From NCBI RefSeq assembly GCF_014639535.1, contig NZ_BMGA01000005.1, positions 73,455 to 137,454 on the forward strand: 64,000 nucleotides of DNA, read 5' to 3'. The notes beneath the pieces were generated by a model that worked only from the letters and a program-made list of their open reading frames with translations, had not been told where the DNA came from and made no database searches. The DNA comes from Flavobacterium palustre (GTDB lineage Bacteria > Bacteroidota > Bacteroidia > Flavobacteriales > Flavobacteriaceae). Both the position numbers and the translations under genes were made by a program. Shown here piece after piece: positions 36,243 through 39,572 of this stretch. The stretch's first letter is position 1, and every line of letters begins with the position of its first letter.

Positions 36243-39200
36243 TTATTTAATAATCCTCACATTCATCTCCTCTACCTTTTTATCAGATAAAGCAGATGGA
36301 GCTCCGAATAATAAATCATCACTCGTTCCTGTTTTAGGGAAAGCCATTACCTCTCTGATAGAAGCTTTTTTCTCTAAAATCATCATCAAACGGTCAATTC
36401 CCCAGGCAATTCCTCCGTGCGGCGGTGCTCCGTATTGGAAAGCTTTATACATCGTTCCAACACTCTTAATCATCTCTTCTTTATTGTAACCCATATTTCT
36501 ATAAGTTGCTTCCAGAATTTCCGATTTATGTGCACGAACGGATCCTCCTCCAATTTCGTAACCGTTTAAGATAATATCATATTGTTGCGCAATGATAGTT
36601 CCGATTTCCTCTTCTTTACCATCCATGTGTTTTTGCAAATCATAAACAGCAGGCATCGAGAACGGATTATGTGTAAATGTCCATCTTCCTTCATCGGTTT
36701 TTTCAAACATTGGAAAATCAACTACCCAGGCCGGACGCAATTCCTTCGGATTAATCAAATGTAACATTCTGCCCAGTTCCTGACGCACTGCATCCAAAGC
36801 CTTATTTGCCGTAGCATAATCGGCTGCTGAGAAGAACACAATATCACCTATTTGAGCATTTGCTGCCTTTATAATTCCAGCTGCAATTTTTTCTCCTAAG
36901 AATTTAATAATCGGCGATTGCAATTCATCTTCATTCACAATGATATAAGCCAAACCACCCAAACCATTTTGCTGGGCTATAGCCGTTAGAGCCTCTATTT
37001 GTCCTTTAGAAATACGCTTGTTTCCTTGTTCCTGAGCCGAAACTTTGATACATTTTACAATTCCGCCTTCTTCAATTGGCTTAGAGAAAACCTGAAAAGT
37101 AGTATCTTTTACAATTTCTGTAATATCCTGCATTTTCAAACCAAAACGCAAATCAGGTCGGTCACAACCATAATAATCCATAGCTTCTTTGTACGTCAGC
37201 ACTTCAAACGGACGTAAAATCCACTTATTACCATATACTTTTTTAACTATCTCATTGAACAATTTGGTATTCAAATCAATAATTTGCTGCATGCTTGCAT
37301 AAGCCATTTCCATATCCAGCTGCGTGAACTCAGGCTGACGATCCCCACGGGAATCCTCATCTCTAAAACAACGCGCTACCTGGAAATATTTCTCATAACC
37401 GCTCACCATCAACATTTGCTTGAACTGCTGTGGCGCTTGTGGCAATGTATAAAAGAAACCGGCTTGTTTACGACTAGGAACAATAAATTCACGTGCTCCC
37501 TCATCGGTTCCGGCACTTAAAATAGGTGTTTCTATTTCTAAAAACTCTTCACCATCCAAAATATCGCGGATTAATTTAATCACCTTATGACGATTAACAA
37601 TCGCACGACGCACTTCGTCATTTCTATGATCTAAGAACTTGTATTGAAAACGAGTAGCTTCGTTAGTTTTTGCAGCTCTTTTAATTTCAAATGGCAAAGT
37701 TTTAGACAGGTTTAATATCTCTAATTCCGATGTTTCCAATTCGATTTTACCCGTACGCAATCCGGCATTAAAATCATCTTCGTTACGACCAACTACGATA
37801 CCTTTTACCGAAATAACCGATTCCGGTTTTAACTTTACCAATTCGTCGATATTAGGGAAAGATTCCCTGCTGATACGAACCTGAAATACTTCATAACTCG
37901 AATCACGCAAATCAATAAACATCAACTCTCCGTGGTCACGCACACTGGCAACCCAACCGGAAAGCATTACCTCCTGACTAACACTTTCTTCAGATAATTG
38001 CGAAATTTTATGTGTTCTGTAGGTATCTTTTACAACAATAGGAATTTCAGGAAGCACTTCTTCCTGAGCTTCTTTTGATTCGGCAATTGCTTCTTTTGAA
38101 ACTTTTTCCTGAGATTCTTTATTTTCTACAAGAGTATCAGCTCCTAATTTATCTAAAATAATCTGACGGATTACTTTTCCGTTTGCTCCTTTTCCGATAA
38201 TCCCAAGAACTTTACCAACTAAAATCCCGGCTTTCCCTTGATCTCCGGCAGCAATGTCTTTAGCAACAGCTTCATTTTCGGCAATTACTTTAGAAATTAC
38301 TTCCTGGATTTTGTCTTCCGAAATGGTATTTTCTTCGAAATACTTATTGTAGTCAAAATTTTGATCTTTTAAATAACCTGCAATAGCATTTTGAACTAAA
38401 ACTGCCGTGATTTTTTCAGCTTTGAACAACACAAAAATGGTTACTAAATGCTCAATATTATGGATTTTAGCATAATCTTCGGCCTTAACATTATTAGCCA
38501 AAGTTTTAGCAACAAACGAAGGATCGTTAATTTCGTTATTTAAAGTAACAAATGTTCTGGAACGCAAAGCATCTGCTGTAAAGAACTTAGCATCCTGAGG
38601 CAAAACACCTCCGTTAATCAATATCGATTCAACAGCATAAGGCAAAGCGCTTGCATCCACCTTAATAGCTTCAATCTCCGCTTTAATATTTACAAAAGGT
38701 AAATCCGGCTCAGAAATGAAACGGTAATCCGCTTCAAATTCTTTTTTACGCATAGTTTTGGTCTGCTTTAATTCAGCATCCCACAACACAGTCGTTTGAT
38801 CAGGACGAAACTCTTTGTGCTCAACAAAATAATTAAACTGCTTCTCTACCTCTTCTTTCAGAGCTTCCACCATAAACTTAAACGAGTTCAGGTTTTTGAT
38901 TTCCGTTCTTGGATTCAAGTCGTTACTGTCTTTTTTACGCAAAGACACCGAAACATCCGATTTGAATTCTCCTTTTTCCAAATTCGCTTCAGAGATTCCT
39001 AAGTTCTGAACAATACGCTGAATATACTGCGCATAAGTCGAAGCATCTTCGATATTACGGATACAAGGCTCGGTAACAATCTCAATCAATGGTACACCGG
39101 CTTTGTTAAAATCGACTAACGAAATTTTCTTTTCGTGCATCAATTTTGCAGCGTCTTCCTCAATATGAACCTGCGTTAAATTTACGGTAAATTGTGTACC

Positions 39201-39572
39201 GTCGTTTCTATAACAAGAAACGTGTCCGTCAGGAATAATTGGATTATGAAATTGTGTAATCTGAATATTTTTCGGGTTATCCGGATACTCATAATGCTTT
39301 CTATCCCAGGAAATCACTTCATTACTAAATGAAGAATCCACTGCTTTTCCGAAATAAATAGCCTTAGTAACCGCTTCTTTATTTACTGCAGGCAAAACCC
39401 CCATTTGTCCGGTACAAACCGAACATATATTTTGGTTAGGTGTTTCTATTTCCTGATTTGGACAGGAACAAAACAACTTGGTTTTGGTATTCAATCGAAC
39501 GTGTGTTTCCAGTCCGATAACCAATTCTAAATCGTGGGCTTTAATAGCCGCCGTTAATTGTTCCAATTCCAT
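36243..39572 (-). CDS. gatB/aspS: GatB-AspS fusion: amidotransferase subunit B joined to aspartyl-tRNA synthetase
   Basis: One open frame of 1109 codons. Residues 1-484 are a complete GatB: zinc cysteines 35, 37, 50, 53; 'DRKHYEYPDNPKNIQITQ'; 'EIKNLNSFKFMVEAL'; helical/YqeY tail from about 345. Residues about 484-516 are a charged Glu/Lys/Ser linker. Residues 517-1109 are a complete bacterial AspRS: anticodon OB fold ('LSGWVASVRDHGELMFIDLRD'), motif 2 ('CFRDEDSRGDRQPEFTQLDME'), GAD insertion, motif 3 ('GAPPHGGIAWGIDRLMMIL'). AspRS makes Asp-tRNA; with GatA/GatC, GatB amidates Asp-tRNA(Asn) or Glu-tRNA(Gln). The start codon overlaps the gatA stop (TAATG), so translation is coupled. His547 in RDHG suggests a non-discriminating AspRS. 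The linker and intact domains argue against an assembly error. Confidence 0.95.
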   Translation of the reverse strand: MELEQLTAAIKAHDLELVIGLETHVRLNTKTKLFCSCPNQEIETPNQNICSVCTGQMGVLPAVNKEAVTKAIYFGKAVDSSFSNEVISWDRKHYEYPDNPKNIQITQFHNPIIPDGHVSCYRNDGTQFTVNLTQVHIEEDAAKLMHEKKISLVDFNKAGVPLIEIVTEPCIRNIEDASTYAQYIQRIVQNLGISEANLEKGEFKSDVSVSLRKKDSNDLNPRTEIKNLNSFKFMVEALKEEVEKQFNYFVEHKEFRPDQTTVLWDAELKQTKTMRKKEFEADYRFISEPDLPFVNIKAEIEAIKVDASALPYAVESILINGGVLPQDAKFFTADALRSRTFVTLNNEINDPSFVAKTLANNVKAEDYAKIHNIEHLVTIFVLFKAEKITAVLVQNAIAGYLKDQNFDYNKYFEENTISEDKIQEVISKVIAENEAVAKDIAAGDQGKAGILVGKVLGIIGKGANGKVIRQIILDKLGADTLVENKESQEKVSKEAIAESKEAQEEVLPEIPIVVKDTYRTHKISQLSEESVSQEVMLSGWVASVRDHGELMFIDLRDSSYEVFQVRISRESFPNIDELVKLKPESVISVKGIVVGRNEDDFNAGLRTGKIELETSELEILNLSKTLPFEIKRAAKTNEATRFQYKFLDHRNDEVRRAIVNRHKVIKLIRDILDGEEFLEIETPILSAGTDEGAREFIVPSRKQAGFFYTLPQAPQQFKQMLMVSGYEKYFQVARCFRDEDSRGDRQPEFTQLDMEMAYASMQQIIDLNTKLFNEIVKKVYGNKWILRPFEVLTYKEAMDYYGCDRPDLRFGLKMQDITEIVKDTTFQVFSKPIEEGGIVKCIKVSAQEQGNKRISKGQIEALTAIAQQNGLGGLAYIIVNEDELQSPIIKFLGEKIAAGIIKAANAQIGDIVFFSAADYATANKALDAVRQELGRMLHLINPKELRPAWVVDFPMFEKTDEGRWTFTHNPFSMPAVYDLQKHMDGKEEEIGTIIAQQYDIILNGYEIGGGSVRAHKSEILEATYRNMGYNKEEMIKSVGTMYKAFQYGAPPHGGIAWGIDRLMMILEKKASIREVMAFPKTGTSDDLLFGAPSALSDKKVEEMNVRIIK

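Follow-up and report, generated by a model that had tools for sequence, protein, structure and literature searches.

A gatB–aspS fusion gene and its neighbours

We use profile scans, alignments and genome comparisons to study a fused gene, gatB–aspS, that joins the amidotransferase subunit GatB to an aspartyl-tRNA synthetase (AspRS) in Flavobacterium palustre. The stretch of DNA analysed, hereafter the window, comprises 64,000 nucleotides (contig NZ_BMGA01000005.1, positions 73,455 to 137,454) of a genome of 3.97 Mb in 36 contigs, and all features below lie on its reverse strand and are given in window positions. The fusion gene (36243..39572) is an uninterrupted, ATG-started frame of 1109 codons, encoding 1109 amino acids, whose parts were assigned with Pfam and NCBIfam. 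Read from its start, it holds the GatB_N cradle (PF02934; residues 17-300, 38673..39524) with cysteines 35, 37, 50 and 53, the YqeY tail of GatB (GatB_Yqey, PF02637; residues 345-476, 38145..38540), a variable linker delimited by alignment and substitution rates (about residues 478-507, 38052..38141), the OB fold of an AspRS (tRNA_anti-codon; residues 535-620, 37713..37970), which includes His547, and the class II core (tRNA-synt_2; residues 637-1081, 36330..37664), with motifs 2 and 3 intact and with the GAD insertion domain (residues 829-926, 36795..37088). Every one of these Pfam domains scores above its cut-off.

The original prediction, made from the letters alone, had read this frame as a full GatB followed by a full AspRS, and the profile scans agree. 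The frame reaches the GatB equivalog TIGR00133 (347.5 bits against a cut-off of 314.8) as well as the AspRS equivalog PRK00476 (710.3 bits against 443), and it combines what defines a GatB (equivalog score, N-terminal cradle, four cysteines and YqeY tail) with what defines an AspRS of the bacterial type (OB fold, class II core and GAD domain, equivalog score, motifs 2 and 3). The four cysteines, which had also been pointed out and which we take to bind zinc, are invariant across 40 aligned fusions, and FRDE, GxDR and the Arg of GGGSxR are retained in 39/39 fused AspRSs. Between the linker and the AspRS domain, the aligned fusions share a conserved peptide, LPxIPxxIKxxYRT. That GatB and AspRS are made in a fixed 1:1 ratio, as had been proposed, follows from the sequence.

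The fusion gene is the downstream member of a small cluster in which GatA, GatB and GatC are all encoded by neighbouring genes. The gatA gene (39572..40969, 465 amino acids) was identified by Pfam and carries the motif stretches GIKD, GGSSGGS and GGDTGGSIRQPA; its stop overlaps the start codon of the fusion by one base. Upstream of gatA lies a divergent gatC (41106..41375, 89 amino acids), matched by the Pfam GatC profile at 22.9 bits against a cut-off of 23; in two relatives the same profile gives 26.8 and 21.2 bits. Because GatC is divergent and missed by curated cut-offs, automatic pathway calls may score GatCAB as incomplete in such genomes.

Conservation of the fusion and its cluster

How widespread is this arrangement? 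In 299 genomes of the same family there are 46 GatB genes, and 46/46 lie in long frames: 45 frames have 1115-1130 amino acids, and one fusion frame of 809 amino acids reaches the end of a 3562-base contig. Together with two further genomes of the own genus, these carriers make up the 48 fusion genomes considered below, 47 of which have the AspRS core on a frame of more than 1000 amino acids, the exception being the one cut by a contig end. When GTDB genomes were scanned with the alignment of 40 fusions as the query, 249 relatives were obtained, and we retrieved the best 80. These match residues 1-1109 or nearly so, and the shortest match, covering 1-1055, lies at the edge of a contig; 79/80 are uninterrupted frames of 1090 amino acids or more, and the remaining one leaves its contig. 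They come from Flavobacterium, Lutibacter, Polaribacter, Tamlana, Algibacter, Flavivirga, Mariniflexile, Confluentibacter and other genera. By fusion protein the nearest named relative in GTDB, where the own genome or its nearest kin were possibly left out, is Flavobacterium glycines at 99% identity, and identity to the window protein ranges from 77 to 84% in the other 39 fusions of the alignment. One locus (L131) places a fusion with 91% identity on a contig assigned to Lentimicrobium; this contig is probably flavobacterial and mis-binned in a metagenome-assembled genome.

The search for GatB and AspRS on one protein that the original prediction had called for thus finds them together in 46/46 family-sample GatB genes and in the best 80 of the 249 GTDB relatives. 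No close relative with two separate genes was found; relatives in the family sample carry the fusion or no gatB. We find nothing in favour of a sequencing or assembly artefact, and with full single frames in 45/46 and 79/80 cases across many genera, the other two being cut by contig ends, this explanation has a negligible probability. The fusion is real, neither a chance join nor a misassembly.

The two halves and the linker differ sharply in how they are conserved. Across the aligned fusions, 2/40 positions are invariant in the linker region (residues 478-517) against 182/284 in GatB_N. The ratio of nonsynonymous to synonymous substitution rates (dN/dS), measured against 16 relatives, is 0.026 in GatB_N, 0.071 in the tail, 0.45 in the linker (residues 478-505) and 0.033 in AspRS; from these values we conclude that purifying selection is strong on both halves and that the linker is loose. 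The length and poor conservation of the linker suggest a tether rather than a rigid hinge, and the conserved peptide ahead of the AspRS domain may dock.

Beyond the family, a phylum-wide GatB search returned frames of 349-621 amino acids among the matches listed, and in 20 of 38 GatB-bearing genomes of the same class no PF00152 frame of more than 1000 amino acids was among the matches listed (E-values down to 3.4e-92). As to the source of the fused AspRS, we built a midpoint-rooted tree of 51 rows containing 16 of the 40 fusions, 31 standalone Bacteroidia AspRSs and four references. A recent duplication of the flavobacterial AspRS is unsupported, with the fusions (100/100) grouping apart from the 31 standalone Bacteroidia enzymes (100/100); long branches meet in this tree, and therefore the donor cannot be named.

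The surrounding cluster is conserved along with the fusion. The one-base overlap with gatA recurs in 72/74 loci parsed by a script whose motif missed 6/80 GTDB loci; one of the other two has an 87-base gap and the other is a short contig without gatA. A GatA-family frame is present in 79/80 fetched loci and, by a crude motif, a GatC-like frame in 65/80. Within the fetched flanks (up to 5 kb), gyrB occurs in 56/80 loci (L115-L194); it lies downstream in Flavobacterium, and nearly all loci of other genera have it upstream and on the opposite strand. This suggests mainly vertical inheritance with rearrangement. No tRNA gene was found near the fusion, either in the window or among 60 loci, of which 57 come from relatives and three from the own genome. 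Upstream of the window gatC (41557-42215, reverse strand), a gene for a PIN-domain protein (PIN_3) and an overlapping DUF6364 gene look like a toxin-antitoxin pair of the VapBC type.

Asparagine and tRNA synthetases in fusion genomes

We now consider which other routes to asparagine the carriers possess. The own genome matches the tRNA-dependent asparagine pathway in lacking both asparagine synthetases: we find no AsnA, no AsnB at E <= 1e-40, and a single PF00733 match of 20.4 bits, below the cut-off of 21. With a query taken from genome G262, housekeeping AsnB (E <= 1e-40) is found in 0/48 fusion genomes against 22/22 non-fusion controls, which were chosen by hand (15 from the 299-genome sample and 7 from the own genus). 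Over the family sample, an AsnB-type match above the TIGR01536 cut-off occurs in 16/46 fusion genomes against 231/253 non-fusion genomes (247/299 in total, from hand-sorted E-values), an association with a Fisher p of 4e-16 that is uncorrected for kinship. AsnA is present in 22/299 family genomes and in 0/46 fusion genomes. The 22 non-fusion genomes without an AsnB-type match divide into 8 with AsnA and 14 with neither. The same exchange is visible within genera: in genus g7, G006 has the fusion and G240 has AsnB; in g48, G269 has the fusion and G047 has AsnB; and in the own genus (g1), none of the 3 genomes found with the fusion has AsnB, and all 8 tested without it do. From these gene contents, the fusion appears to replace the asparagine synthetase AsnB in its carriers.

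The class IIb synthetases of the own genome are a standalone AspRS, the fusion, LysRS and AsnRS; standalone AspRS, AsnRS and LysRS, together with GlnRS and GluRS, each score above their NCBIfam equivalog cut-offs. A standalone AspRS, judged by score and frame length, accompanies the fusion in 46/48 fusion genomes; the remaining two have completeness values of 76-77%. With the own AsnRS as the query (E <= 1e-10), AsnRS is found in 76/80 genomes, among them every one of the 12 non-fusion and the 20 same-class genomes tested. The four genomes without a match at that threshold all carry the fusion: G180, G228 and G237 are each 99% complete, and G271 is 76% complete. In G228 and G237 the three class IIb matches are, by score and length, AspRS, the fusion and LysRS. 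Because AsnRS was not found in the near-complete genomes G180, G228 and G237, all Asn-tRNA(Asn) there would have to come from the fusion, by gene content its sole visible source. G180 has a fourth class IIb match in addition.

A probable covalent transamidosome

Known transamidosomes are non-covalent. The crystal entries 4wj3 (Pseudomonas aeruginosa) and 3kfu (Thermus thermophilus) each contain AspRS and GatCAB, which in complexes of this type act as a single machine on tRNA(Asn). The original prediction had suggested a covalent counterpart, and this reading is backed by the domain scans, by the presence of the fusion in every GatB-bearing family-sample genome and by gene content that points to amidation of Asp-tRNA(Asn): with high confidence, though short of certainty, we read the fusion as a covalent transamidosome that serves tRNA-dependent asparagine synthesis. 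The AspRS half, a second and putatively non-discriminating AspRS, would load aspartate onto tRNA(Asn). The GatB half, with GatA and the small GatC of the same cluster, would then activate the aspartyl group and amidate it, using ammonia derived from glutamine, to yield Asn-tRNA(Asn). In this step the acceptor end of Asp-tRNA(Asn) would shift from the AspRS half to the GatB site, the tRNA being passed from one active site to the other across the flexible linker, and GatA would feed the ammonia. The separate AspRS would serve tRNA(Asp) and GlnRS tRNA(Gln), and AsnRS, kept by most carriers, could use free or recycled asparagine. The activities of the fusion, its tRNA specificity, its assembly with GatA and GatC and the tRNA hand-over are what we infer from sequence.

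Two sites in the AspRS half bear on which tRNA it accepts; we assume that they correspond to positions 31 and 83 of the P. aeruginosa enzyme (His and Gly), which relax tRNA specificity. At the first, the His typical of non-discriminating enzymes (His547 in the window) is present in 39/39 fused AspRSs and in 77/80 GTDB loci, the other 3 falling outside the motif used. At this site 31 standalone enzymes from Bacteroidia carry Lys (26), Leu (3) or Phe (2), the Asp/Asn ligases of P. aeruginosa and M. smegmatis have His, and the AspRSs of E. coli and T. thermophilus have Leu. Also in favour of the reading, both tRNA-Asn(GTT) genes in the 800 kb scanned of the own genome read T1...A72 G73 by eye, that is, U1-A72, the pair recognised by bacterial GatCAB (PMC4206432).

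Several observations weigh against this reading. At the second site the fusions have Asp (38) or Glu (1) and not the Gly of the two non-discriminating references; Lys is found in 31/31 standalone enzymes and in E. coli, and Pro in T. thermophilus. The AspRS pocket is changed in all 39 fusions, from TPEGARD to TDEGARE in the flipping loop and from HHPF to HNPF, residues unlike those of every other AspRS compared. The window GatA is below the TIGR00132 cut-off (438.1 against 481.1 bits), and the match to GatC is weak. Since the U1-A72 pair is also frequent in bacteria without the tRNA-dependent asparagine pathway, according to Table 2 of the survey PMC4206432, it is permissive only. The 16 carriers that retain AsnB-type proteins must be considered as well. 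None of these proteins is a housekeeping AsnB at 1e-40, and some could still make asparagine. In 11 of the 16 genomes, for which the frames are listed, ten have 603-642 amino acids and one has 569, and they mostly match the whole profile, whereas AsnB rows of about 558 amino acids match positions 1-385; we read them tentatively as paralogues belonging to other pathways. Finally, the 22 non-fusion genomes that lack an AsnB-type match are absent from the AsnB controls, the AsnA count excludes the own-genus fusion genomes G444 and G490, and 14 non-fusion genomes have neither AsnB-type match, AsnA nor fusion (for example G041, G092, G116, G167, G208 and G295). These last are genomes of 1.4-2.7 Mb, 8/14 of them less than 90% complete, and are candidates for asparagine auxotrophy, for another route or for incomplete assembly.

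Two other accounts of the intact fusion have to be weighed. GatCAB amidates Glu-tRNA(Gln) in many bacteria, as the survey states (PMC4206432), and the GatCAB part could accordingly make Gln-tRNA(Gln) here, with the AspRS half a passenger or an enzyme for tRNA(Asp) only. For the own genome, where alone we searched, we reject the glutamine role: GlnRS and GluRS are both present, so GatCAB is unneeded for Gln-tRNA. Also against this account stand the exchange with AsnB, which concerns asparagine, the dN/dS of 0.033 in the AspRS half and the separate AspRS of 46/48 fusion genomes; altogether we consider it very improbable. A closer competitor accepts the covalent transamidosome and differs on what the link is for, holding that it serves equal dosage or stability only, while the enzymes act separately and Asp-tRNA(Asn) is released between the steps. 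The linker varies in sequence and length under weak constraint, so the join imposes no fixed geometry, as this account would have it. The linkage is nevertheless retained in 46/46 family-sample carriers, and released Asp-tRNA(Asn) would risk Asp-for-Asn errors, the latter being a general argument for channelling and neither a direct test; within the covalent transamidosome, we regard a role in dosage or stability alone as rather unlikely. Tentatively, and as somewhat less likely than not, we put forward a more specific form of the covalent transamidosome: the fused AspRS may be dedicated to tRNA(Asn), tRNA(Asp) being left to the separate AspRS. The protein would then be an indirect asparaginyl-tRNA synthetase complete in itself, with one tRNA visiting two active sites on the same chain, and would have displaced asparagine synthetase and, in some lineages, AsnRS.

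Relation to known systems and implications

The pathway is already known, and the GatB-AspRS form appears to be new. Complexes of the 4wj3 and 3kfu kind consist of separate polypeptides, whereas the flavobacterial AspRS and GatB are one chain; the fusion thus falls outside the non-covalent class and is a variant of it. NCBIfam does catalogue an AspRS-amidotransferase fusion, PRK12820 (bifunctional AspRS/GatC); there, however, AspRS is joined to GatC instead of GatB, and the window protein reaches 473.5 bits where 1379 are required. The bifunctional annotation name mentioned in the original prediction was not confirmed; none of the 25 NCBIfam matches of the fusion is a GatB-AspRS model. We found no report of a GatB-AspRS fusion in the titles and abstract openings of the literature searched, a scope outside which subscription journals, supplements and database annotations lie.

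The closest precedents are those described in the 2014 survey (PMC4206432). In Deinococcus radiodurans and T. thermophilus, a second, archaeal-type non-discriminating AspRS (ND-AspRS) and GatCAB make Asn on tRNA(Asn). Like the fusion carriers, these bacteria possess AsnRS and GlnRS, GatCAB, and a second AspRS beside the normal one; in contrast to theirs, the flavobacterial second AspRS is of the bacterial type, with OB fold and GAD domain, and forms one covalent chain with GatB. Bdellovibrio bacteriovorus and probably Legionella use a single bacterial-type ND-AspRS with GatCAB. They share with the carriers a bacterial-type AspRS, in the carriers putatively non-discriminating, and GatCAB beside AsnRS and GlnRS, with no AsnA or AsnB, but they have one AspRS, which is not described as fused. 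Among genera with AsnRS, GlnRS and GatCAB and without an Asn synthetase, the survey places a second AspRS only in Deinococcus-Thermus; Bacteroidetes appear in this group of 18 genera and are credited with one AspRS, and fusion carriers may be among them, unrecognised.

It follows that bacteria can have a second AspRS that is not of the archaeal type, and that asparagine routes are exchanged within one genus. Where a transamidosome can dissociate, it is difficult to decide whether it channels Asp-tRNA(Asn); a natural covalent form under strong selection, and natural genomes in which AsnRS was not found, make the question testable.

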